Origin: Agreia pratensis
GTDB taxonomy: Bacteria; Actinomycetota; Actinomycetes; Actinomycetales; Microbacteriaceae
Length of the DNA: 64,000 nucleotides
Assembly: GCF_900177685.1 (NCBI RefSeq)
Contig: NZ_FXAY01000004.1
Coordinates: forward strand, 62,001 to 126,000
Direction of reading: 5' to 3'
The notes below the pieces were generated by a model. The model was not told where the DNA came from, made no database searches, and saw nothing but the letters and a program-made list of their open reading frames with translations. The position numbers and the translations under genes were made by a program. Position 1 is the stretch's first letter; each line of letters starts with the position of its first letter. Positions 12,054-41,745 of this stretch are shown in pieces.

Positions 12054-13406
12054 ATGATCGACTCCTCACCCCTCGGCGACGACGCGCTCGCGCTGCTGCG
12101 CGACCTCATCCGCAGCGCGTGCGTGAACGACGGAACCTACGCGTCCGGTCAGGAAATTCGGAACACCGACGTCTTGAGGCGATTCTTCGAGGGTGTCGAC
12201 GTGGATCCCGTCGTCGTCGAATCGGCGCCCGGTCGAGCGACGCTCGTCGTGCGCATCCCCGGCACCGACCCGCAGGCGCCGTCTCTCGCGCTGGTCGGGC
12301 ACATCGACGTCGTGCCCGTGATGCACGGAGGCTGGAGCCATGACCCGTTCGCCGCAGACATCGTGGGCGACGAACTCTACGGTCGCGGCACCCTCGACAT
12401 GCTCTATCTGACGGCCGCCTATGCGGTGGCCACGAGAGCTGCCGCATCCAAAGGTCGCGCTCTGCGTGGCGACCTCATATTCGTGGCGGTCGCCGACGAA
12501 GAGGGCGGCAGCCGTCTCGGCATCGAATGGCTCATGCAGCACCACCCCGAACTCATCGATGCCGACTACGTGCTTACCGAATCGGGCGGCGTCCCTGTCG
12601 GCGGCTCAGCGGGCGCGCCGCACTCCGTGACCGTGACCGTGGGGGAGAAGGGGCTGGCCCGACGACGACTGCTGATCCGCGGGATCCCCGGACACGGTTC
12701 TGCGCCGTGGGGCTCGTCGAATGCCGGTGTGATCGCGGCCGAGGCGGTGACCCGGCTCACGCGGTTCGCGCCCCGTGCCGTCATCGGCGACTACTGGCCG
12801 CGCTACGTCGAGGCTCTCGACCTCGACCCCGATGTGTCGAGGCGACTCACCTCCGTGGCAGAGATCCTGGGGGCGCTTCCGGCGCTCGGTGAACTCGCGG
12901 GCTACGCTCACGCGACGACACACACGACCATCTCGCCCAACGTGATCCGAGCGGGCGACGCGATCAACGTCATCCCGGGCGAGGCCAGTATCGACCTCGA
13001 CATCAGGCAGCTGCCCGGGGTATCTCCCGAGGCCGTCGACGCGTACGTCATGGCCGCGCTCGGCGACCTGATGCAACACATCGAGATCGTGGATGTCGTC
13101 GGTGCGTCGTTCAGCCCGGCCAACGTCTCGCCGATGGATACGCCGCTCTTCGACGTGCTCGCCGAGGTCATCGACGAGGCGTATCCGGGGGCCGTGCCGC
13201 TGCCGATCATCGCGGCGGGAGGATCGGACGCCCGGTTCTATCGTGCTAAGGGCCGACAGGCCTATGGCTTCTCGGTGCTGTCGCGGCGATGGGACTACGG
13301 GCGCTTCCGTCACCTCATCCACGGCAACGACGAGCACATCGACCTCGAATCGGTCACGCTCACCGCTCGTGCCTTGGATTCGGTCGTGAGGCGTTTTCTG
13401 GGCTGA
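12054..13406 (+). CDS. M20-family metallopeptidase
   Basis: This 450-residue co-catalytic zinc hydrolase has the M20 signatures: GHIDVVP with H83 and D85, GRGTLDM with the bridging D115, and the catalytic pair E149/E150 in ADEEGGS. A dimerisation domain sits in the middle, around ISPNVIRAGDAINVIP. It is probably a cytosolic peptidase, carboxypeptidase or N-acyl-amino-acid deacylase; the exact substrate cannot be set. It lies in the ArgE/DapE superfamily, and argG is 2 kb downstream, but the sequence is not clearly ArgE. Confidence 0.88.
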   Translation: MIDSSPLGDDALALLRDLIRSACVNDGTYASGQEIRNTDVLRRFFEGVDVDPVVVESAPGRATLVVRIPGTDPQAPSLALVGHIDVVPVMHGGWSHDPFAADIVGDELYGRGTLDMLYLTAAYAVATRAAASKGRALRGDLIFVAVADEEGGSRLGIEWLMQHHPELIDADYVLTESGGVPVGGSAGAPHSVTVTVGEKGLARRRLLIRGIPGHGSAPWGSSNAGVIAAEAVTRLTRFAPRAVIGDYWPRYVEALDLDPDVSRRLTSVAEILGALPALGELAGYAHATTHTTISPNVIRAGDAINVIPGEASIDLDIRQLPGVSPEAVDAYVMAALGDLMQHIEIVDVVGASFSPANVSPMDTPLFDVLAEVIDEAYPGAVPLPIIAAGGSDARFYRAKGRQAYGFSVLSRRWDYGRFRHLIHGNDEHIDLESVTLTARALDSVVRRFLG

Positions 13407-13445
13407 CCGGCAGGACGGCCCTCGGATCGCGGGTAACCTCGACAG

Positions 13446-17157
<3,712 letters not shown>

Positions 17158-31332: not shown

Positions 31333-33867
31333 CTAGGCGGTGGGCGCCTCGGCATGCTTCGGGCCAGCGGCTCCATGGGCTTCGGCCGGCTGCTTGCGCT
31401 GCAGAGACGCGCCCTCGACGTCGACATCGGGCAGGATACGGTCGAGCCACTTCGGCAGCCACCAGGCCGACTTGCCGAGCAGATGCATCACAGCCGGGAT
31501 GATCAGGAGCCGCACGATGAAGGCGTCGACCAGCACACCGAGGGCGAGGCCGAGGCCGATCGACTGGATCATGACCGAGTTGGAGAAGACGAAGCCTCCG
31601 AACACGCTGATCATGATGAGCGCGGCGGCAATCACGACCGTGCGCCCGGCGTGAACGCCACGCTGAACCGCCAGTCTGGCCGGTGTGCCGTGCGCATACG
31701 ACTCGCGCATGCCGCTCACCAGGAACAGCTGATAGTCCATCGCGAGCCCGAACAACACCCCGACCACGAGGATCGGAAGGAAGCTGAGGATCGGCCCCGG
31801 ATCGTGCACCCCGAAGACGGGTCCCAGCCACCCCCACTGGAAGACGGCGGTGATGCCGCCGAACGCCGCGAACAGAGACAGCACGAATCCTGCCGTCGCC
31901 GTGATCGGCACGAGAATCGATCTGAACACGAGAATCAGGATGATAAGCGAGAGTCCCACAACGACCGTCAGGTAGAGCGGAAGGGCATCGGCGAGCTTCT
32001 CGCTCACGTCGATGTTGCCCGAGGCGTTGCCGGCGACGCCGAGCTCTGCCACGCCGTCGATGGTGAGACCGCGAAGGTCTCGCACCAGCTGCTCGGTGGA
32101 CTCGCTGGTGGGCCCCTCTTTCGGAATCACCTGGAACGCCAGCAGCAGGTCGTCGTCGCTGGCACCGATCGGCGCCACGGCGACGACGTCGTTCTCTGCC
32201 TTCAGCAGGGTGCCGATGCGCACCTGCTCGCTCACGAGGTCGTCGTCTGTGATCGCCTTGTCGAGATCGGCCACGACGATCAGCGGTCCGTTGACGCCGG
32301 CGCCGAACTTGTCGTCGATCAGTTTGTAGGCCTTGTACGCGCTGGAGTCGACCGGTTCGGAGGAGCCGGCGGGCAGGCCGAGACGCATCGAGAGCGCGGG
32401 CAGTGCCACAACGAGCAGCACGGCGATTCCGGCCACGACGGTGATCGCGGCACGCAGGGTGTTCATCGGCTTGTTCGGAACCCGAGCCTGGTGATCGCTG
32501 TGGCCGACCTTGGCGCGGGCCTTCTTGTTGAGGATGCGCATGCCGGCCAGCCGCAGGAAGGCGGGAGTCAGGGTGATCGCGATCAGGATGGCGACGAAGA
32601 CGCAGACCGCGCCGACGGTGCCCATGAGTCCCAGGAAGGGGATTCCTGTGAGATTGAGAGCGAGCAAAGCGATCAGCACGGTCGAGCCCGCGAAGACCAC
32701 GGCGTTGCCGGAGGTTCCATTGGCCAGGCCGATGGATTCCTGCACTTCGAGGCCCGAGCGCAATTGGGTTCGGTGCCGGTTGAGGATGAACAGCGAGTAG
32801 TCGATTCCGACCGCCAGACCCAGCATCACGCCCAGCACGGGCGTGATCGAGAGCATGGTGACGGTGCCCGACAGTGCGAGCGATACAAGCACGCCCACGC
32901 CCACGCCGATGATCGCGTTGATCAGCGGCAGGCTCGCGCCGATCAGCGTGCCCAGCATCACGAACAGCACGATGCCGGCGAAGATGACACCGGCGATCTC
33001 GCCCGGGCCGAGAACCTCGGGGATGGTGGCCGCGATGTCGTTGGACACCTCGACGGAGACGCCGTCGATCTTGGCGTCGTTCATCGTGTCGACTACGGCC
33101 TCTTTTGCCTCGGACGGAACGAGGTTGAGCGACTTGTCGAACTGCACGGTGCCGACCGCGGTGGTGCCGTCTGATGAGACCTGCCGAATATTGGCCGACA
33201 GATCGAGAAGCTGCGAGCCGTCTTCGAGCGTCTTGCTCTGCTTCTCGAGATCGGCCCGGTTCGAGTCGAGCGTCGCCTGCTGCGATGCGATCTGGGCGTT
33301 GCCGGCATCGATCTGAGCCTGCTGCGCGTCGAGCTGCGCCTTAGCGGCGTCGAGCTGGCCGGCCGCCTCGGCCTGAGCACGTGCGGCGTCGAGCTGCTGC
33401 TGCCCTGTCGCCGCCTGTGCCTTGGCGGCGTCGAGCTGCTGCTGGCCCGTGTCGAGCTGCGCCGTGCCGGCGGTGATCTTCTGACGCCCATCGACGACCT
33501 GCTGAGCGGAGCCGTCGATCTTCGCCTGTGTGTCGAAGGGGTTCGTCGTCGCCTTGACGTCTTTGAGCTTGGTCGCGTCGCTCAGAAGCGTGCCGATCGC
33601 CGTCTTCTGCGCATCGGTGAACGCCGAGTCGTCGGTCGTCGTGAAGACGACCGTTCCCCGCCCACCGCTGGCGGCGGGGAACTTCTCCGAGAGTTCGTCG
33701 CTCACCTTCTGTGTCGCGGTTCCCGGGATGCTCACGGCCGAGGTGAGCGTGCCCCCGAATATCGCGAAGGCAGCGCCGGCCAGGCCGAGGATCACCACCC
33801 ACGCAACGATGACGAGCCACGCTCGTCGTGCGGAGAACCGACCGAGTCGGTAGAGAAGGGATGCCAT
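31333..33867 (-). CDS. MMPL/RND-family membrane transporter with coiled-coil insert
   Basis: This 844-residue protein has about twelve membrane helices in two repeats. The conserved cores are VLGVMLGLAVGIDYSLFI in the first half and VVGVLFGLAMDYQLF in the second, with the Asp-Tyr pairs that carry proton flow in MMPL exporters. The first extracytoplasmic loop contains a repetitive Gln/Ala/Leu/Asp-rich segment at about residues 123-218 that should form a long coiled coil. It probably exports lipids or toxic compounds. The ATG at 33867 is chosen since homology begins at MASLLYRLGRF. A TetR gene lies 91 bases upstream on the same strand. Confidence 0.9.
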   Translation of the reverse strand: MASLLYRLGRFSARRAWLVIVAWVVILGLAGAAFAIFGGTLTSAVSIPGTATQKVSDELSEKFPAASGGRGTVVFTTTDDSAFTDAQKTAIGTLLSDATKLKDVKATTNPFDTQAKIDGSAQQVVDGRQKITAGTAQLDTGQQQLDAAKAQAATGQQQLDAARAQAEAAGQLDAAKAQLDAQQAQIDAGNAQIASQQATLDSNRADLEKQSKTLEDGSQLLDLSANIRQVSSDGTTAVGTVQFDKSLNLVPSEAKEAVVDTMNDAKIDGVSVEVSNDIAATIPEVLGPGEIAGVIFAGIVLFVMLGTLIGASLPLINAIIGVGVGVLVSLALSGTVTMLSITPVLGVMLGLAVGIDYSLFILNRHRTQLRSGLEVQESIGLANGTSGNAVVFAGSTVLIALLALNLTGIPFLGLMGTVGAVCVFVAILIAITLTPAFLRLAGMRILNKKARAKVGHSDHQARVPNKPMNTLRAAITVVAGIAVLLVVALPALSMRLGLPAGSSEPVDSSAYKAYKLIDDKFGAGVNGPLIVVADLDKAITDDDLVSEQVRIGTLLKAENDVVAVAPIGASDDDLLLAFQVIPKEGPTSESTEQLVRDLRGLTIDGVAELGVAGNASGNIDVSEKLADALPLYLTVVVGLSLIILILVFRSILVPITATAGFVLSLFAAFGGITAVFQWGWLGPVFGVHDPGPILSFLPILVVGVLFGLAMDYQLFLVSGMRESYAHGTPARLAVQRGVHAGRTVVIAAALIMISVFGGFVFSNSVMIQSIGLGLALGVLVDAFIVRLLIIPAVMHLLGKSAWWLPKWLDRILPDVDVEGASLQRKQPAEAHGAAGPKHAEAPTA

Positions 33868-33958
33868 GTTTCTCAGCTTCTTTCTGAAATGAGCGGGTGA
33901 CGGGGGCGGGGTCTCACGTCGCATCGTTGGGAAGAGAGAGGGGATCGGGTGACGGAAC

Positions 33959-34591
33959 TCAGCTCGGCGTGGAGAAGCCGTCGCCCACGATTCGAATCAA
34001 GCGGTCGAGCAGACTGTCCCAGAGGCGTCGGGAACTCTCATCGAGAGTTCCCCCTGACTGGACCATCCAGTGTCGAGCGACCACGGCGATGCCATTCATC
34101 AGTGTGCTCACCAGGATCGCGACCTCGAACTCGTCGACTCCACTGCGCCGAGTGAGTTCGTCTGTGAGATCTTCGGATGACCGCATGAACACGCTGTCTG
34201 CGTTCTGCTTGCGCGCGTCGTCGCCGTCGAGAAGTCCGAAGAAATACAAGACGAGGCTGGGCAGATCCATAGCCCGGATCGCCGCGGTGATTTCGTCGAA
34301 GAGATGCACGCGGCTGCCGTGGCTCGATGGCGTGACGCCGGCGACGGCCAGAAATTCATCGACTGCACGGTTGAGCGTGCGCGTGCAGGTGGTCATGATC
34401 ACGTCGTCGAGCGACGAGAAGTGGTTGAAGACGGTGCGCCGGGCTATGTCGGCGCGATCGGCGAGTTCGTCGACACTGAATCGAGCCCTGCCTCTGTCGA
34501 GGATCAGCGCGTCTGCCGCGTCGAGAATCGCCTCACGGTGTCGCGCCTTCAACTCGGCGCGGCGATCCATCGCGGTCGGTTCGGTACTCAC
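33959..34591 (-). CDS. TetR-family regulator, probable MMPL repressor
   Basis: This 210-residue regulator has REAILDAADALILDRG and the helix-turn-helix VDELADRADIARRTVFNHF. It lies directly upstream of the MMPL gene on the same strand, an arrangement typical of a repressor co-transcribed with its exporter. A GTG at 34591 is given; an ATG at 34570 is possible, and neither has a clear ribosome site. Palindromic sites lie five bases upstream of the GTG. The effector is unknown. Confidence 0.88.
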   Translation of the reverse strand: MSTEPTAMDRRAELKARHREAILDAADALILDRGRARFSVDELADRADIARRTVFNHFSSLDDVIMTTCTRTLNRAVDEFLAVAGVTPSSHGSRVHLFDEITAAIRAMDLPSLVLYFFGLLDGDDARKQNADSVFMRSSEDLTDELTRRSGVDEFEVAILVSTLMNGIAVVARHWMVQSGGTLDESSRRLWDSLLDRLIRIVGDGFSTPS

Positions 34592-34595
34592 GGTC

Positions 34596-34628
34596 GTTAC
34601 ACTACGTGCAACGACGCACTCAGTGCAA
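34596..34628. promoter_or_regulatory. TetR operator pair upstream of the tetR-MMPL unit
   Basis: GTTACACTACGTGCAAC (34596-34612) is an imperfect palindrome with arms GTTACAC and GTGCAAC. A related one ending in the same GTGCAAC half-site follows at 34613-34628 (GCACTCAGTGC core). The two sites are about 16 bases apart and abut the tetR start, fitting autoregulation. Confidence 0.55.
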
Positions 34629-34709
34629 CGGGATGCGTATGGTTGCGTCGAACTCTCAGCAAGCTCCCGTGACGGGGCGCGCTTGCATGGAGCATTGATC
34701 AGGCGATAT

Positions 34710-34734
34710 GGTTGCCAAATTGGTCAACCGGTTG
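34710..34734. promoter_or_regulatory. candidate operator upstream of the six-gene operon
   Basis: An imperfect inverted repeat with arms GGTTGCC and GGTCAACC (34710-34729; 16 of 20 positions symmetric) overlaps a perfect palindrome CAACCGGTTG (34725-34734). It lies 64 bases before the MFS start. No regulator gene is in the operon, so the binding protein is encoded elsewhere. Confidence 0.5.
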
Positions 34735-34797
34735 TTAGCAGGAGTGTTCTGCTGAGAAAGCGGCCTAGCCGAAATTGACATGACAAAGGAGTTATCA

Positions 34798-36198
34798 ATG
34801 ACAACGGCCAGCGCCGAGACGCCCGTCTCCGCAATCGAGAAGTCGACGATCAAGAAGGTCGCATGGCGACTCGTTCCCTTCGTCGCTTTTATGTTCTTCA
34901 TCAATTACCTCGACCGATCCGCCATCGGATTCGCTGCGCCGAACGGCATGAACGACGACCTCGCACTCACGGTGACCCAGGTCGGCTTCGCCTCGGGAGT
35001 CTTCTTCATCGGCTACATCCTGCTCGAGGTGCCCTCCAACCTCGCGCTCGCCCGCTTCGGAGCGCGCCGCTGGCTGTCTCGCATCATGGTCACCTGGGGA
35101 ATCGTCGCGGTTCTCTTCACCTGGGTCGGCAACTTCGAGCAACTGGCCATCCTGCGCTTCGTTCTGGGTGTGGCCGAGGCCGGATTCTTCCCCGGAGCCA
35201 TCCTGTTCCTCAGCCTGTGGGTGCCCGCACGGCACCGCGGCAAGATCCTCGCACTCTTCTATTTAGCTCAGCCCCTCACCACGGTGATCGGTGCACCCCT
35301 GGCCGGCCTGCTCATCGGCGCGCACGGGCTCTTCGGGCTCGAGGGGTGGCGAGTGATGTTCCTCGGTGTCGGATTCCCCGCGATCATCGTCGGTGTCATC
35401 GCCTGGTTCTACCTGAAAGACAAGCCCAGCGACGCGAAGTGGCTCACAAAAGAAGAGCAGGTCTGGCTCACCGAAGAGCTCGCCGCTGAGAAGACCAAGA
35501 CCGAGTCTCTCAATGCGATCACCGGTGGCAAGCAGCGCGGCGGCTTCATGCAGGCCTTCACGAGCGGACGCGTCTGGGTGCTCGCCTTCATCTACTTCGG
35601 ATTCATCTACGGCCTCTACACGCTGGCCTTCTTCCTGCCGACGATCATCAACGGATTCCAGGAGCTCTACGGCACCGAGTACAACGTCTTCGAGAAGGGC
35701 CTCATCACGGCGGTTCCCTACATTCCCGCGGCGATCGCCCTGTGGCTGTGGACAAGAGACGTCTCGAAGCGCGGACTCAAGACGTGGCACATCGCGGGCC
35801 CGGCAGTCGTGGGCGCCCTCACCATTCCTCTGGCCCTGTTCGCCGGATCTCCTGTTGCGACGATCGCGGTGATCGCGATCACGGCCATGGCCATCTTCGC
35901 TGTGCTCCCCAACTTCTGGACGCTGCCCACCCAGTTCCTCACCGGCGTCGCGGCGGCGGCGGGTGTCGCGCTGATAAACACCGTCGGTAACCTCGCCGGA
36001 TTCGGCGCGCCGTACATCACGGGTGCCGTGGCCGACATGACAAAGGACTCCGCGGGAGAACCGCAGTACTTCCTTCCGATGGCGATCGTGGGCTTCTTCC
36101 TGCTGCTCTCCGCGGTGCTGATGGTCGTGCTCTCGCATCGGGGCAAGAAGGACGGTTCCTTCAACCCCGATGCGAAAGCGCCGGCGATCGTCCACTGA
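34798..36198 (+). CDS. MFS permease, anion:cation symporter (ACS) type; likely sugar-acid importer
   Basis: This 466-residue protein has twelve helices. It shows the ACS-family pattern: RLVPFVAFMFFINYLDRSAIGFA in helix 1, EVPSNLALARFGARRWLSRIM after helix 2 and LRFVLGVAEAGFFPGAI in helix 4. ACS members carry organic anions such as glucarate, tartrate and other sugar acids with protons. AAGGAG six bases before the ATG sets the start. As first gene of a six-gene operon it most likely imports the starting substrate, here proposed to be D-apionate or a related branched sugar acid. Confidence 0.9.
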   Translation: MTTASAETPVSAIEKSTIKKVAWRLVPFVAFMFFINYLDRSAIGFAAPNGMNDDLALTVTQVGFASGVFFIGYILLEVPSNLALARFGARRWLSRIMVTWGIVAVLFTWVGNFEQLAILRFVLGVAEAGFFPGAILFLSLWVPARHRGKILALFYLAQPLTTVIGAPLAGLLIGAHGLFGLEGWRVMFLGVGFPAIIVGVIAWFYLKDKPSDAKWLTKEEQVWLTEELAAEKTKTESLNAITGGKQRGGFMQAFTSGRVWVLAFIYFGFIYGLYTLAFFLPTIINGFQELYGTEYNVFEKGLITAVPYIPAAIALWLWTRDVSKRGLKTWHIAGPAVVGALTIPLALFAGSPVATIAVIAITAMAIFAVLPNFWTLPTQFLTGVAAAAGVALINTVGNLAGFGAPYITGAVADMTKDSAGEPQYFLPMAIVGFFLLLSAVLMVVLSHRGKKDGSFNPDAKAPAIVH

Positions 36199-36235
36199 CC
36201 GTCGTGTCGATCCCGAAAACCTCAGGAGTTCTCAG

Positions 36236-37966
36236 ATGACCCGCCTCTTCAACGATCCGACAGAATTCGCCGACGAGATGATCGACGGTTTCGTTTCCGC
36301 CAATGCCCAGCAGGTTCGTCGTGTCGCCGGCGGTGTGGTGCGCAGCACTCGCACCCCTGACGGCACCGTCGCACTCGTCATCGGCGGCGGGTCTGGTCAC
36401 TACCCGGCTTTCGGCGGCATCGTCGGGCAGGGCCTCGCTCACGGCGCGGCCATGGGCAATCTGTTCGCGTCGCCGTCGGCTCAGCAGGTCGAGTCGGTGG
36501 CGACCGCCGCGAATCGCGGGGGAGGCGTGCTGCTCAGCTATGGCAACTATGCCGGTGATGTGCTGCACTTCACCCAGGCCGAGCAGAAACTGAACGCGGC
36601 GGGCATCCCGACGCGCACTGTTGTCGTCACCGACGACATCTCGTCTGCTCCTGTTGCAGAGAAGCACAAGAGACGCGGCATCGCCGGCGACTTCACCGTC
36701 TTCAAGGCGGCGGCTGCCGCCGCGGAAGAGGGCTACACGCTCGACGAGGTCGTGCGAGTCGCTGAGCTCGCGAACGAACGCACGCGCTCTGTCGGAGTCG
36801 CCTTCTCCGGGTGCACACTGCCCGGCGCCGACGAGCCCCTCTTCTCTGTTCCCGAGGGTCGTATGGCCGTCGGCATGGGAATCCATGGCGAACCGGGAAT
36901 CGACGAGACCGATGTGCCGACGGCCGACGAACTCGCGAGCCTTCTCGTCGACTCGCTCCTCGCCGAGCTGCCAGACGGCATCCACTCGCCCGAAGGGCAT
37001 CGCGTCGGCGTGATCCTCAACGGCTTGGGATCGGTGAAGTACGAGGAGCTGTTCGTGGTCTATCGCCACGTCGCCGCCCTGCTTCAGAACGCGGGCCTCG
37101 AGGTCGTCGACCCCGAGGTCGGCGAACTGGTCACGAGCTTCGACATGGCCGGAGTCTCGCTCACGCTCTTCTGGCTCGACGACGAACTCGAACGCTTCTG
37201 GCGGGCCCCGGCCGACACTCCGGCCTACCGCAAGGGATCCGTGGGCGCGGTGCAGCAGCTCGACCCGAGCGAGGTGCAGGAGGCCGAGGCGGTCGTGATT
37301 CCCGAGGCCGATGAGGCGTCGCAGCACGCCGCTGCTGTCGTTCTTCGAGCGATCGATGCGATCGCGACGGTCGTGGATGACAACGCCGACGAACTCGGCC
37401 GCATCGACGCGGTCGCCGGCGACGGTGATCACGGCATCGGGATGCAGCGGGGTGCGCGAGCGGCGCGCGTCGCTGCGTCAGAGGCGCTTGCGCTGGGCGC
37501 GGGCGCGAAGACTCTTCTCGAGATGTCTGCGAGCGCGTGGGCGAACAAGGCCGGCGGCACATCGGGCGCTCTCTGGGGTGTCGCGCTGTCGGCGGTGGGC
37601 GAGGCGCTCGGAGACGAGGATGCGCCTTCCGCAGCCGCGGTATCGGCGGGAATCACGGGAGCCGTCGACGGCATCATGTCGTTCGGCAAGGCCGAGGTCG
37701 GTGACAAGACGATGGTCGACGCACTCGTGCCCTTCCGCGACACTCTCGCCCGAGAGGTCGACGGGGGAGCCGCCCTGGCGGATGCTTGGAAGAGGGCGGC
37801 CGACGCAGCGACGCAGGCTGCGGCGGCGACGGCCGATCTGCTACCGCGCATGGGCCGAGCTCGCCCACACGCGGAGAAGAGTCTCGGCACGGTAGACGCA
37901 GGCGCCTACTCGTTCGGCCTCATCGTGCAAGCCATCGCCGCCACACTCGTCGGCAAGACCGTCTAG
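36236..37966 (+). CDS. DhaK-DhaL fused ATP-dependent kinase, likely L-erythrulose kinase
   Basis: This 576-residue kinase has an N-terminal DhaK domain with GGGSGH (50-55) and the substrate-binding His217 in MGIHGEPG. The DhaL domain carries the ATP/Mg motif GDGDHG (395-400) and AGGTSGALWG. Such two-domain enzymes phosphorylate dihydroxyacetone, or in tetritol pathways L-erythrulose (LerK type). Followed by RpiB-type and TPI-type isomerases, the tetrulose role is favoured. AGGAG lies eight bases before the ATG. There are 37 bases between it and the permease gene. Confidence 0.88.
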   Translation: MTRLFNDPTEFADEMIDGFVSANAQQVRRVAGGVVRSTRTPDGTVALVIGGGSGHYPAFGGIVGQGLAHGAAMGNLFASPSAQQVESVATAANRGGGVLLSYGNYAGDVLHFTQAEQKLNAAGIPTRTVVVTDDISSAPVAEKHKRRGIAGDFTVFKAAAAAAEEGYTLDEVVRVAELANERTRSVGVAFSGCTLPGADEPLFSVPEGRMAVGMGIHGEPGIDETDVPTADELASLLVDSLLAELPDGIHSPEGHRVGVILNGLGSVKYEELFVVYRHVAALLQNAGLEVVDPEVGELVTSFDMAGVSLTLFWLDDELERFWRAPADTPAYRKGSVGAVQQLDPSEVQEAEAVVIPEADEASQHAAAVVLRAIDAIATVVDDNADELGRIDAVAGDGDHGIGMQRGARAARVAASEALALGAGAKTLLEMSASAWANKAGGTSGALWGVALSAVGEALGDEDAPSAAAVSAGITGAVDGIMSFGKAEVGDKTMVDALVPFRDTLAREVDGGAALADAWKRAADAATQAAAATADLLPRMGRARPHAEKSLGTVDAGAYSFGLIVQAIAATLVGKTV

Positions 37967-37988
37967 CTGAACTCACTGAAGGAGAGAA

Positions 37989-38459
37989 ATGACTGACAAG
38001 CTCCGCATCGTCATCGGGTGCGATGACGCAGGATTCGATTACAAGGAGATCCTGAAGAAGGATCTCGAGGCGAGCGATCTCGTCGAGAGCGTCACCGACA
38101 TCGGTGTCGATTCGGCCGGACACACCGCCTACCCCAAGATCGGCGTCGCTGCGGGTGAGCTGGTCGCTGCCGGCGAGGCAGACCGCGCACTCCTCTTCTG
38201 CGGAACGGGGATCGGCGTCGCTATGGCGGCCGGCAAGGTGGCGGGAATCCGCGCATCCGTCGCCCACGACAGTTTCTCGGTCGAGCGACTGATTCTGAGC
38301 AACAACGCCCAGGTGCTCACCATGGGCCAGCGCGTCATCGGAATCGAGCTCGCCCGCCGCCTCGTGCGCGAGTGGCTGACGTACCGCTTCGATGAATCGA
38401 GCGCCAGCGCCGAGAAGGTCGCGGTTCTCTCGGAGTACGAGGCAACGGGCTCCTGCTGA
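37989..38459 (+). CDS. RpiB/LacAB-family isomerase, likely D-erythrulose 4-phosphate isomerase
   Basis: This 156-residue protein has [10 protein letters not shown] at its start and Cys71 in [10 protein letters not shown], the base used by RpiB enzymes. RpiB proper interconverts ribose and ribulose 5-phosphates, but in erythritol and apionate pathways homologues (DerI, EryI) turn D-erythrulose 4-phosphate into D-erythrose 4-phosphate. Gene context favours that. A GAAGGAGAG site precedes the ATG, and its stop overlaps the next start by one base. Confidence 0.85.
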
Positions 38460-39205
38460 TGACCACCCCCACCCTCGTCGGCGTCAGCCTGAAGATGTAC
38501 TTCGGGCACGCGCAGACGCTCGACTGGATCGCGAAGGTCGGTGATCTCGCGCGCCGACACCCCGCCGTGCAGAACGGCTCTGTCGAGGTCTTCGTCATTC
38601 CCGGATTCGTGTCGCTCGCCGCCAGCGTCGACGTACTCGACGACACACCCGTGGTCGTCGGCGCACAAGACCTGGCGGCGGCCGATGCGGGCGCTTTCAC
38701 CGGCGAGGTCAGCGGGGTCGAGCTGTTCGAGGTCGGCGCACGGATGGTCGAAGTGGGCCATGCAGAGCGCCGCGCGCTCTTCGGCGAGACAGACGAGGTG
38801 GTGGCGGCAAAGACGTCGGCAGCGCTGCGCAATGGCCTCGCTCCGGTGCTGTGCGTCGGCGAGAAGACGCGTACCTCTCCCGAGGACGCCGCCGCGGAGT
38901 GCCTGCGCCAGCTCGACTCGGCGCTCGACGGTGCTCCCGCGGGCCGCGTGATCGTCGCCTACGAGCCGGTCTGGGCGATAGGCGCTGCCGAGCCGGCCGA
39001 ACCGGCATACGTCCGTGCCGTCTGCGCCCGCCTGCGCACCGCCGTGGCCGACCGCCCCGACAGCGCCGTCATCTACGGCGGCAGCGCTGGCCCAGGCCTG
39101 CTCGTGGAGCTCGGTGACGACGTCGACGGCATCTTCCTCGGCAGGTTCGCCCACGACACGGATGCGTTGGGGCGCGTTCTCGACGAAGCGGCGGCCCGGC
39201 GATGA
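38459..39205 (+). CDS. triosephosphate-isomerase-family enzyme, likely L-erythrulose 1-phosphate isomerase
   Basis: This 248-residue TIM barrel has Lys12 (VSLKMYF), His101 (GHAERR) and Glu169 (YEPVWAIG), the complete catalytic set of TPI. The N-terminal SLKMYF and GHAERR differ from glycolytic TPI (typically GNWKMN and GHSERR). This fits the paralogues (LerI, EryH/TpiA2) that epimerise or isomerise L-erythrulose 1-phosphate to D-erythrulose 4-phosphate. Both ends overlap neighbours (TGATG, ATGA), so it is firmly in the operon. Confidence 0.85.
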   Translation: MTTPTLVGVSLKMYFGHAQTLDWIAKVGDLARRHPAVQNGSVEVFVIPGFVSLAASVDVLDDTPVVVGAQDLAAADAGAFTGEVSGVELFEVGARMVEVGHAERRALFGETDEVVAAKTSAALRNGLAPVLCVGEKTRTSPEDAAAECLRQLDSALDGAPAGRVIVAYEPVWAIGAAEPAEPAYVRAVCARLRTAVADRPDSAVIYGGSAGPGLLVELGDDVDGIFLGRFAHDTDALGRVLDEAAARR

Positions 39206-40002
39206 TCGGCCTCGGTTCGTACGCCTTCTTCTGGCAGCATTCGGAGCTGGCGGCTCAGCGCCTCGACGCATTCGACATGATTCGCCGCACGGCCGAGCTG
39301 AACGTCGAACTCTTTCAGTTCTGCGACTACGCGCCGATCGAAGACCTGGGCGACGACGACCTCGCGCGGCTCGCCGACCTCGCACGTGAGAACGGCATCA
39401 CGCTCGAACTCGGCACGAAAGGTGTCCAAGCCGAGCATCTCGAGAAGTATCTCGATCTTGCGGCCGTGCTCGGAGCATCCGTCGTGCGCAGCATGCTGTA
39501 CTCACCGACCTCGCGGCCCACACTGACCGAGGCCGATGCGCAGCTGCGCCAGGCCCTTGTCGCATACGGGGACGCGGGCGTCGACCTTGCCCTCGAGACC
39601 TACGAGCAGGTCTCGTCGACCGAACTCGTGTCTCTGGTCGAAAGCATCGGTCATTCCCGACTCGGAATATGCCTCGACCCGGCCAACAGCGTGGCGTCGC
39701 TCGAGAACCCGCGCGACGTGATCGACCGCACGGCGCCCTACGTCAAGAACATCCACGTCAAGGACTTCGCCTTCACCCGCCGCGGCGGCTGGGTGGGGTT
39801 CACCCTCGAGGGCGCGCCCCTGGGCACGGGCCTCCTCGACTACGACTACCTGCTCGAGACCGTTCGTCCGAACGAGCGCGGCATCAACCAGGTGATCGAA
39901 CACTGGCTTCCCCTGGCCGACACCATCGACGAGACGGTTCGGCTCGAGAACGACTGGAACGACCACAACCTCGCATATCTAAGGAGCAAGAATGTCTACT
40001 GA
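39202..40002 (+). CDS. sugar-isomerase-like TIM barrel, candidate 3-oxo-isoapionate decarboxylase
   Basis: This 266-residue AP-endonuclease-2 (xylose-isomerase-like) barrel has the expected metal ligands E132 (LETYEQ), D159 (LDPANS), H185 (HVKDF) and E233 (VIEHW). The family holds isomerases and epimerases, and also OiaC, the decarboxylase that gives L-erythrulose and CO2 from 3-oxo-isoapionate. Its position between tetrulose-phosphate isomerases and a 6PGDH-like oxidoreductase fits OiaC, but sequence alone cannot separate this from an epimerase. It overlaps both neighbours (4 and 11 bases). Confidence 0.75.
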   Translation: MIGLGSYAFFWQHSELAAQRLDAFDMIRRTAELNVELFQFCDYAPIEDLGDDDLARLADLARENGITLELGTKGVQAEHLEKYLDLAAVLGASVVRSMLYSPTSRPTLTEADAQLRQALVAYGDAGVDLALETYEQVSSTELVSLVESIGHSRLGICLDPANSVASLENPRDVIDRTAPYVKNIHVKDFAFTRRGGWVGFTLEGAPLGTGLLDYDYLLETVRPNERGINQVIEHWLPLADTIDETVRLENDWNDHNLAYLRSKNVY

Positions 40003-40849
40003 CAACCTCACCATCGCCGTCATCGGCGCCGGCGGCAAGATGGGCATGCGTGTGTCCAACAACCTCGTCAAGACCGACTACACCGTCTACTACAGCGAAG
40101 TCTCGCCCGCGGGCCAAGAGCGCGTCACCGCGACCGGCCGGGTTCTCACCGACACTCCCGCGGCTGTGAAGGATGCCGATGTCGTCGTGCTCGCCGTGCC
40201 CGATCTCGCCCTCAAGGCGGTCTCGGCCGATGTCGTTCCGCAGATGAAGAGCGGAGCGGTCGTTCTGACACTCGACCCGGCCGCTGCGTACGCCGGACTG
40301 CTGACGCGTCGCGACGACGTCATCGAAGCCGTCACCCACCCGTGCCACCCGTCGATCTTCGTCGAGCGTCACACGCCAGAGGAGTACGCCGACACTTTCG
40401 GCGGAATCGCTGCACTGCAGGATGCGATCGCCGCGATCGAGAGTGACGACGAGACGAAGAAGGCCCAGGTCGAGCAGGTCGTGCGTGCAATCTTCGCCCC
40501 GGTCGGCGACGTGCACTGGACGACGGTCAAGCAGCTCGCCCAGCTGGAGCCCACACTGGTCGAGACCATCGCGTGCATGATCGGCGCGCTGCTCAAGGAG
40601 TCGCTCGACGAGGCCGTCAACACGATGGGTGTTCCCGAGCCTGCCGCGCGCGCGATCCTTCTCGGCCACACGCAGGTCGCCCTGGCGAACACGCTCAAGG
40701 GTGACAACCCCTTCAGCGACGCCTGCCTCATCGCGATGGACTACGGCCGCGGCGCCATCATCAAGGAGGACTGGAAGAAGGTCTTCTCCGACGAGGAACT
40801 CGACAAGAACCTCGCCAAGATGCTGCACCTCGACAAGATCGAGCGCTAG
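39992..40849 (+). CDS. 6PGDH-superfamily oxidoreductase, candidate D-apionate oxidoisomerase
   Basis: This 285-residue protein has an N-terminal Rossmann fold with GAGGKMG (12-18) and an all-helical C-terminal half like the phosphogluconate dehydrogenase C-terminal domain family, which contains ApnO. ApnO oxidises D-apionate with NAD+ and shifts the carbon skeleton to give 3-oxo-isoapionate. HPCHPSIF and the final AMDYGRGAIIKEDW are notable. AAGGAG six bases before the ATG lies inside the preceding gene. It is the last gene before a strong terminator. Assignment rests on family plus context. Confidence 0.75.
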   Translation: MSTDNLTIAVIGAGGKMGMRVSNNLVKTDYTVYYSEVSPAGQERVTATGRVLTDTPAAVKDADVVVLAVPDLALKAVSADVVPQMKSGAVVLTLDPAAAYAGLLTRRDDVIEAVTHPCHPSIFVERHTPEEYADTFGGIAALQDAIAAIESDDETKKAQVEQVVRAIFAPVGDVHWTTVKQLAQLEPTLVETIACMIGALLKESLDEAVNTMGVPEPAARAILLGHTQVALANTLKGDNPFSDACLIAMDYGRGAIIKEDWKKVFSDEELDKNLAKMLHLDKIER

Positions 40850-40860
40850 CCAGCAGTGAA

Positions 40861-40896
40861 CGGGCGACGACTCCTTTCGGGGTCGTCGCCCGTTTC
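40861..40896 (+). terminator. rho-independent terminator of the six-gene operon
   Basis: A perfect 11-base-pair stem, CGGGCGACGAC with GTCGTCGCCCG, encloses a ten-base loop and is followed by TTTCTCTTTG. It begins 12 bases after the last operon gene and precedes the iron box, so it insulates the next gene. Confidence 0.9.
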
Positions 40897-40901
40897 TCTT
40901 T

Positions 40902-40917
40902 GTTAGGCTTGCCTAAC
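40902..40917. promoter_or_regulatory. DtxR/IdeR-type iron box
   Basis: GTTAGGCTTGCCTAAC is a perfect palindrome (7-base arms, TT centre) that matches the TTAGG...CCTAA core of DtxR/IdeR operators. It is 25 bases before the start of the siderophore-interacting protein gene and should shut it off when iron is plentiful. Confidence 0.85.
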
Positions 40918-40941
40918 TTGCTGTCGAAGTTAGGTCGTTTC

Positions 40942-41745
40942 GTGTCTGTATCCGCTCCCGCTCCCTCGCCCACCCCCGGCGCCCGCAGGCCTCGTGCGCA
41001 GATCGCGCTCACCGTTTTGCGCTCCGAGGAGCTGACGCCGCACCTCGTTCGCGTCGTTCTCGGCGGCCCGGGTTTCGACGAGTTCGAGAGCAATGACAAG
41101 ACCGACAAGTACGTCAAGATCTTGTTCACCGACTCCGACGGGCACGACGTGACCCGCACTTATACGGTGCGCGAGGTGAATGCCGCCGAGAAATCGATCT
41201 CGATCGATTTCGTCGTGCACGGCGACGAGGGTCTCGCCGGCCCATGGGCGGCTGCCGCCAAGTCGGGCGACACGGCGATCATCTCCGGCCCGGGCGGAGG
41301 CTACGCGCCAGACGCGTCGGCCGACTGGCATCTGCTCGTCGGCGACGAGTCGGCCCTTCCCGCTATCGCGTCGGCGTTGGATACTCTTCCTGCGACCGCG
41401 CGGGGAGTCGCCTTCATCGAGACCTACTCCGACGCCGATGTTCTCGACCTGCACGCGCCCGCGGGCGTCGACGTTCGCTGGCTGCTGCGCGGCCAGCGCC
41501 GCGCGGGGGAGGCGACGCTCCTCGCCGAAGCCGTGTCGCAGCATCCCTGGGACGAAGGACGCGTTCACGTCTTCGCCCACGGGGAGCGCGGCGCCATGAA
41601 GCAGCTGCGTGACGTGTTCAAGCAACGCGGAGTCACGCGCGCGCAACTCTCGCTGTCGGGCTACTGGGCTTTCGGCCGCACAGAAGACAGGTTCCAGGCA
41701 GAGAAGCGCGAGCCTGTGGGGGTGATCGAGCCCGTCTCTGATTGA
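40942..41745 (+). CDS. siderophore-interacting protein (SIP family, flavin ferric reductase)
   Basis: This protein of about 267 residues has an N-terminal FAD-binding barrel with the RTYTVRE flavin motif and a C-terminal SIP domain (LLVGDESALPAI, VHVFAHGERGAMK, LSGYWAFGRTED). It probably uses NAD(P)H to reduce ferric siderophores in the cytosol. A GTG at 40942 is chosen: the frame continues upstream but would pass through the iron box. Control by iron through that box is expected. No siderophore biosynthesis or uptake gene is nearby. Confidence 0.92.
   Translation: MSVSAPAPSPTPGARRPRAQIALTVLRSEELTPHLVRVVLGGPGFDEFESNDKTDKYVKILFTDSDGHDVTRTYTVREVNAAEKSISIDFVVHGDEGLAGPWAAAAKSGDTAIISGPGGGYAPDASADWHLLVGDESALPAIASALDTLPATARGVAFIETYSDADVLDLHAPAGVDVRWLLRGQRRAGEATLLAEAVSQHPWDEGRVHVFAHGERGAMKQLRDVFKQRGVTRAQLSLSGYWAFGRTEDRFQAEKREPVGVIEPVSD

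Follow-up and report, generated by a model that had tools for sequence, protein, structure and literature searches.

Gene content and organization of the operon

In the window analyzed here, a 64,000-nt stretch of the genome of the actinobacterium Agreia pratensis (contig NZ_FXAY01000004.1, positions 62,001 to 126,000), six open reading frames (ORFs), all on the plus strand at positions 34798-40849, form a candidate operon for the conversion of D-apionate to erythrose 4-phosphate. The families assigned to the six genes in a preliminary description of this DNA were confirmed, since each of the encoded proteins exceeds the gathering score of its Pfam family (Table 1). The last four genes overlap by 1, 4 and 11 nt, and all of the residues named in that description were found: His217 and GDGDHG in the kinase, Cys71 in the RpiB-type isomerase, K12, H101 and E169 in the triosephosphate isomerase (TPI)-type protein, and E132, D159, H185 and E233 in the TIM barrel. 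Start codons were set by the best fit to a ribosome-binding site and to the family profiles. The ATG of the gene for the major facilitator superfamily (MFS) permease is preceded by AAAGGAG.

Table 1. Features of the operon region (positions within the window; functional names are candidate assignments)
Feature	Position	Strand	Remarks
TetR-family regulator, divergent	33959-34591	-	PF00440
MFS (ACS-type) permease, candidate D-apionate importer	34798-36198	+	466 aa; PF07690
Single-chain DhaK-DhaL kinase, candidate LerK (L-erythrulose kinase)	36236-37966	+	576 aa; PF02733 and PF02734
RpiB-type isomerase, candidate DerI	37989-38459	+	PF02502
TPI-type isomerase, candidate LerI	38459-39205	+	PF00121
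AP_endonuc_2 TIM barrel, candidate OiaC (3-oxo-isoapionate decarboxylase)	39202-40002	+	PF01261
PF16896 NAD-binding protein, candidate ApnO (D-apionate oxidoisomerase)	39992-40849	+	PF16896, 2.3e-56
Terminator-like hairpin	40858-40895	+	17 pairs, 11 G-C; T-rich tail

Conservation of the gene set

Neighboring genes were scored as close when at most 1.5 kb apart, a threshold of our choosing. By this measure the barrel gene lies beside an ApnO-like gene in 76 of the 80 loci fetched, and the set of five enzymes is present in 56 of them. The barrel and ApnO genes also occur together where no kinase or isomerase match was found in 20 kb (e.g., L064 and L081). In plasmids of Pantoea sp. At-9b and Erwinia sp. 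E602 the genes follow the order MFS-DhaKL-TPI-barrel-ApnO with a divergent rpiB, and the encoded ApnO and barrel proteins are 57-58% and 48-49% identical, respectively, to those of the window. The protein families, the five-enzyme loci, the Erwiniaceae gene order and a D-apiose-related context described below thus support the earlier assignment of the operon to ApnO, OiaC, LerK, LerI and DerI with an MFS importer.

Within Agreia, the proteins of the window were compared with those of four other loci (L100-L103). Identity was highest for ApnO (99%), RpiB (98-99%) and the permease (96-97%), and lower for the barrel, TPI-type protein and kinase (87-92%; 88-92% for the barrel).

Candidate ApnO and OiaC proteins

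The last protein of the operon scored 190.5 bits with PF16896 (cut-off 25), and one gene of this family was found in the genome. Members of the family were detected in 5 of 8 genomes of the genus; among 396 genomes each of the order and the phylum, 43 and 8, respectively, have one. Solved relatives are 5t57 (5t57_A, E 4.9e-59) and 3c24, whose annotations, semialdehyde dehydrogenase and putative oxidoreductase, go no further. In Rhizobium anhuiense, a PF16896 protein 43% identical to that of the operon is encoded among proteins that match the NCBIfam models for OiaX (776.7 bits, cut-off 700) and ApnL (1048.9 bits, cut-off 750). This locus also encodes an ABC importer, a Gfo/Idh protein and an OiaK-like kinase, which at 475 bits misses its cut-off of 700. 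In Burkholderiaceae, MFS and ApnO genes adjoin OiaK, and both OiaK proteins scanned score above the cut-off (822 and 855 bits versus 700). Family and gene context make the PF16896 protein of A. pratensis a candidate ApnO.

A PF16896-like protein (43% identity) is also encoded on a plasmid of Haloarcula sp. JP-L23 (L224). This locus, which has a four-carbon acid sugar kinase and a protein with the annotation ribulose 1,5-bisphosphate carboxylase nearby, is perhaps an OiaX-type apionate locus of an archaeon.

The metal-site residues of the TIM barrel are invariant in all 16 aligned sequences, including that of the window. Its predicted fold (pLDDT 93.8) is closest to the solved folds of Art22 and D-tagatose 3-epimerase, and fold and metal residues together fit xylose-isomerase-like barrels. 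A profile search against solved structures returned four generic barrels, and no NCBIfam model matched the protein. Its family, fold and gene context point to a candidate OiaC.

OiaC-like barrels with 57-62% identity were observed in Rhodocyclales and related bacteria (Propionivibrio, Accumulibacter; L111, L112, L116, L119 and L178), where they fall inside a Microbacteriaceae branch of the barrel tree (SH-aLRT 94). The ApnO proteins of these loci are just ∼40% identical and form a clade of their own, and three of the loci have a TRAP transporter and threonate-dehydrogenase-like and four-carbon-kinase-like proteins nearby. Transfer of the barrel gene, or use of another substrate, is possible in these bacteria.

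Candidate kinase and isomerases

The kinase scored 756 bits with NF011049 (cut-off 492), and its family and residues fit LerK. Apart from the TPI-type gene of the operon, the genome has a single gene of this family, located on contig C6 and presumed to be the housekeeping one; the two products are 39% identical. With this second TPI available, the operon enzyme is not necessarily a glycolytic one. The operon protein shares 39% identity with its counterpart in the Rhizobium OiaX/ApnL locus and 51% with the TPI of the Pantoea operon, and is a candidate LerI distinct from the housekeeping enzyme. The RpiB-type protein, a candidate DerI, passes the cut-off of TIGR02133 RPI_actino (184.1 versus 168.2 bits). 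Two further genes of the RpiB family are present elsewhere in the genome.

A second single-chain DhaK-DhaL protein (63% identical to that of the operon) and an RpiB-type isomerase (71%) are encoded on contig C9 at 12342-17013 (L181:8342-13013), with L-threonate-dehydrogenase-like and four-carbon-acid-kinase-like proteins. This cluster probably encodes a tetronate or tetritol pathway.

The permease and its likely ligand

A search of 72,556 plasmid records with the permease gave 442 matches, 12 of them with at least 60% identity and the next listed with no more than 43%. Nine of the 12 loci were examined, the remaining three being from Rhizobium. Relatives with 62-67% identity head ApnO operons of both the OiaC and the OiaK type (64-67% in the latter) in Proteobacteria: two of the nine are the Erwiniaceae operons with OiaC, three are MFS-ApnO-RuBisCO-like-OiaK operons (two in Caballeronia, one in Cupriavidus) and one is an MFS-ApnO-OiaK operon (Paraburkholderia). 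Both RuBisCO-like proteins scanned fell below the OiaX cut-off. In the three stretches encoding a RuBisCO-like protein, the reference proteins matched no Gfo/Idh protein, ApnL or Rhizobium-type ABC importer, with the sole exception of a generic ABC ATPase at 28% identity.

The OiaC-type and OiaK-type operons have the permease and ApnO in common, and no other enzyme gene was seen in common. The ligand of the permease is therefore most simply the substrate of ApnO, and D-apionate is the likely candidate on this comparison of operons. Import of the acid by the MFS protein had already been proposed; it is still likely, for a reason independent of the one given then.

An SDR/ApnL-like gene pair elsewhere in the genome

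The preliminary description had pointed to a lack of D-apiose dehydrogenase and lactonase genes, from which it followed that the cell would use the acid directly. Such genes are indeed missing from the operon, but the genome has candidates for them: contig C10 encodes a 610-aa ApnL-like protein (NF049900, 1.7e-52), and the gene directly before it encodes a 267-aa short-chain dehydrogenase/reductase (SDR). The conclusion of direct use finds no support in the genome as a whole, since these two genes go with ApnO in many relatives.

Four other Agreia genomes (G001-G004) carry close copies of the SDR (91-94% identity), while in the remaining three genomes of the genus (G005-G007) the best matches reach at most 37% or are absent; the close SDR is thus found in exactly those five of eight genomes that have PF16896. 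ApnL-like matches occur in A. pratensis and G001-G004, and G007 has a piece of one. Behind the pair in G002 lies an ABC importer that shares 48-59% identity with that of Rhizobium. The G007 piece is on a 3.7-kb contig (C229; L187) that also encodes an ABC ATPase sharing 47% identity with its Rhizobium counterpart; having no PF16896 match, this genome is an exception to the co-occurrence of the two families. An ArAE/FUSC (aromatic-acid-exporter-like) gene was observed 3' of the pair on contig C10 (L180:8372-9505), and relatives of it (82-87%) stand near the pair in G001-G004 as well, with the ABC importer intervening in G002.

Outside Agreia, the pair is often located behind ApnO. With the SDR counted at 55% identity or more (like the 1.5-kb distance, a threshold set by us), it is present in 35 of the 80 loci and close to ApnO in 29; an ApnL-like gene is present in 39, and in all 34 loci with both genes the two are close. 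In a set of 36 loci the corresponding numbers are 13 with the SDR (11 close to ApnO), 17 with an ApnL-like gene and 13 with both, close together in nine. Across the order, ApnL-like proteins were found in 31 of 396 genomes, 30 of which are among the 43 with PF16896 (3.4 expected), and co-occurrence by genus was 9/9, in a test that kinship inflates.

An orthologue of ApsD, the D-apiose dehydrogenase of the Gfo/Idh/MocA type, was sought as well. With the Rhizobium Gfo/Idh protein as query, the six matches in this genome did not exceed 29% identity and those in the eight genomes of the genus did not exceed 32%, and this candidate was dropped because the matches were just generic Gfo/Idh proteins. 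Searches of the SDR against solved structures yielded generic SDRs, headed by 4ni5, 4nbu and 4wec (best 60 of 132), which do not tell its substrate; no solved relative or family model among those listed points to apiose. Read most economically, the data make the SDR a candidate D-apiose dehydrogenase in place of the Gfo/Idh type here. Against this stand the lack of a pointer to apiose among the relatives and models listed and 13 of the 43 PF16896 genomes of the order, in which no ApnL-like match was found; many carriers must consequently begin with the acid or rely on a different lactonase.

Proposed pathway

What was observed here is the order of the genes, the families and catalytic residues of their products, and conserved co-location and co-occurrence; every substrate and every reaction of the scheme is inferred. 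The permease would import D-apionate, which ApnO would oxidize with NAD and rearrange by a hydroxymethyl shift to 3-oxo-isoapionate. This β-keto acid would be decarboxylated to L-erythrulose by the metal-binding barrel (OiaC). Phosphorylation by the DhaK-DhaL kinase (LerK) would produce L-erythrulose 1-phosphate, from which the TPI-like enzyme (LerI) may form D-erythrulose 4-phosphate; conversion of the latter by the RpiB-like enzyme (DerI) would give D-erythrose 4-phosphate. The SDR and ApnL-like proteins would probably feed the operon from D-apiose by way of sugar, lactone and acid. That the six genes are a catabolic unit leading from D-apionate to erythrose 4-phosphate appears very probable to us, and the upstream feed probable.

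Contrary evidence and alternative explanations

Several observations weigh against this scheme. The ApnL-like protein is far below the ApnL cut-off (178.8 of 750 bits), and its predicted fold weakly resembles glycoside hydrolases (GH36/GH97). The alignments of the fold search, to GH36/GH97 and other proteins, were mostly long and poor (TM to query 0.2-0.4 among the best 50 rows), and no function was claimed from them. No Rhizobium-type ABC sugar-binding protein was detected in this genome at E ≤ 1e-20, and two of the eight genomes of the genus have one, at 52-60% identity. The Rhizobium-type importer is also rare beside the genes in question (5 of 116 loci); where a homologue of the sugar-binding protein with at least 42% identity does occur, in two of the 80 and three of the 36 loci, it speaks for the scheme. 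The remaining three of the nine permease loci examined, on Rhizobium plasmids, have no ApnO match in 13 kb (∼6 kb on each side), and no ApnO match was found in three of the 80 barrel loci (L117, L120 and L161). The RpiB-type protein, which passes RPI_actino, the model for actinobacterial ribose-5-phosphate isomerase, is yet below the cut-off of the DerI model NF051858 (138.1 versus 240 bits); this rhizobial model was probably not built for telling DerI from RPI_actino. Finally, in a tree of 29 proteins, made by a quick method from few rows and limited by some long branches, the ApnO proteins of OiaC context are on one side (SH-aLRT 97) and seven from OiaX or OiaK context on the other, with 37-43% identity between the two. 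A shifted substrate of the OiaC-context clade is therefore possible.

The cell might use the acid only, with the SDR/ApnL-like pair serving an end unrelated to apiose, such as a glycoside-type hydrolase with its own dehydrogenase. The missing sugar-binding protein, the 13 PF16896 genomes without an ApnL-like match, the weak GH36/GH97 likeness and the set of 36 loci, where SDR and ApnL-like genes are close in merely 9 of the 13 loci with both, are all in line with this. We nevertheless consider it unlikely in view of the 80-locus set, with the SDR close to ApnO in 29 loci and the pair together in 34 of 34, and of the presence of the close SDR in exactly the PF16896-carrying genomes of the genus.

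Less probable still, and on the whole doubtful, is the use of the same enzyme types on another branched or tetronic sugar acid, whose oxidized product would also be decarboxylated to an erythrulose. Both the separate position of the OiaC-context ApnO clade and the distance of the ApnL-like proteins from NF049900 would suit such a substrate, but the two ApnO clades are paired with the same permease family (62-67% identity), with ApnL-family proteins and, in a few loci, with homologous ABC importers.

It is highly improbable that LerK, LerI and DerI make up a tetritol or L-erythrulose pathway, with the last two genes serving some other function. The kinase and the two isomerases do belong to the types that a passage of PMC10733421 describes for tetritol catabolism, but the six proteins include no tetritol dehydrogenase (no genome-wide search was made for one), the barrel and ApnO genes form the least variable pair of the locus even where the other enzymes are not nearby, and the contig C9 cluster fits tetritol or tetronate use better.

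Wider significance

We regard this as a known pathway in an actinobacterial form that is well supported, and two of its parts, the SDR and the MFS permease, look new. On balance we lean toward a wider view: in actinobacteria an SDR may have replaced the Gfo/Idh enzyme for D-apiose oxidation, along with a divergent ApnL; one MFS family would be a dedicated D-apionate importer in both the OiaC and the OiaK/RuBisCO-like routes; and D-apionate would itself be a nutrient, with apiose oxidation optional.

In pectin (rhamnogalacturonan II) apiose acts as a cross-linking sugar, and it is also a constituent of many plant glycosides. The analysis places a candidate route for D-apionate in actinobacteria (Agreia, Plantibacter, Microbacterium, Arthrobacter and Streptomyces) and one for D-apiose in some of them (Agreia, Plantibacter and many Microbacterium). 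Two previously unassigned protein groups gain candidate roles, the SDR as D-apiose dehydrogenase and the MFS group as D-apionate importer. The name ribose-5-phosphate isomerase may be wrong here for the RpiB-like member.

In the open-access literature searched, no paper joins apiose with Microbacterium, and none on an apiose dehydrogenase, apiose reductase or apionolactone enzyme was found among titles and the beginnings of abstracts. PMC11747546 was the sole relevant paper on apionate, ApnO or OiaC among the matches listed. PMC11277061 was discarded as a source on apiose dehydrogenase, as the passage concerned is a reference on UDP-apiose biosynthesis.

Flanking genes and signals

The hairpin downstream of the ApnO gene probably marks the 3' end of the operon; eight hairpin-type sites were found in 33900-41000 versus 2.9 expected in shuffles, and its stem is the longest listed. 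A sigma-70-type promoter scan of the same interval gave no sites. Just 3' of the terminator-like hairpin, a second one (40911-40935) was observed at the start of a gene for a siderophore-interacting FAD protein (40900-41745); it is possibly a regulatory leader of this gene, unless the true start codon lies further on.

The divergent TetR gene is a possible, unproven regulator of the operon. Together with an MMPL gene (31333-33924) it stands beside the operon in three of four other Agreia loci and in none of 12 further loci (L104-L115), some of which are short upstream. Neither gene was retained as a core part of the system, since neither was found in these 12 loci. A plus-strand ORF at 33897-34778 was rejected as a gene because it lies opposite the TetR gene.

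Comparison with known systems

The reaction scheme comes from work by Carter and colleagues in 2018, in which D-apiose and D-apionate are reportedly catabolized by ApnO, OiaC, LerK, LerI and DerI. A passage of PMC6302742 cites and summarizes that study (Carter et al., 2018). The Agreia operon resembles this pathway in that every step between D-apionate and erythrose 4-phosphate has its family member, namely a PF16896 ApnO, a metal-type TIM barrel, a DhaK-type kinase and isomerases of the TPI and RpiB families. It differs in being headed by an MFS importer and in having no dehydrogenase or lactonase genes; the candidate dehydrogenase is an SDR encoded elsewhere in the genome instead of a Gfo/Idh protein, and the host is an actinobacterium.

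With the OiaX/OiaK branch, exemplified by Rhizobium anhuiense, the operon shares the ApnO family and, in the case of Burkholderiaceae, also the MFS family. This branch has an OiaK kinase and a RuBisCO-like decarboxylase where the Agreia operon has OiaC. Members of the OiaK and OiaX/OiaT families were not found among the six operon proteins, to which the search was confined, no genome-wide search having been made. Growth on D-apiose with an OiaK/decarboxylase set is described for Rhodobacteraceae strain LCG007 in a passage of PMC11747546.

The Pantoea sp. At-9b and Erwinia sp. E602 operons contain the same gene set, and their arrangement between MFS and ApnO matches that of the window except for rpiB, which is divergent and whose product is 46% identical to that of the window in Pantoea; a "sugar-binding transcriptional regulator" follows ApnO. 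Tetritols are catabolized through LerK, LerI and DerI in M. smegmatis. According to a passage of PMC10733421, LerI and DerI, with tetritol dehydrogenase and LerK, supply erythrose 4-phosphate in an Escherichia coli test strain. The lower three steps of tetritol catabolism are thus like those proposed here, whereas entry is by tetritol dehydrogenase and not by ApnO and OiaC.

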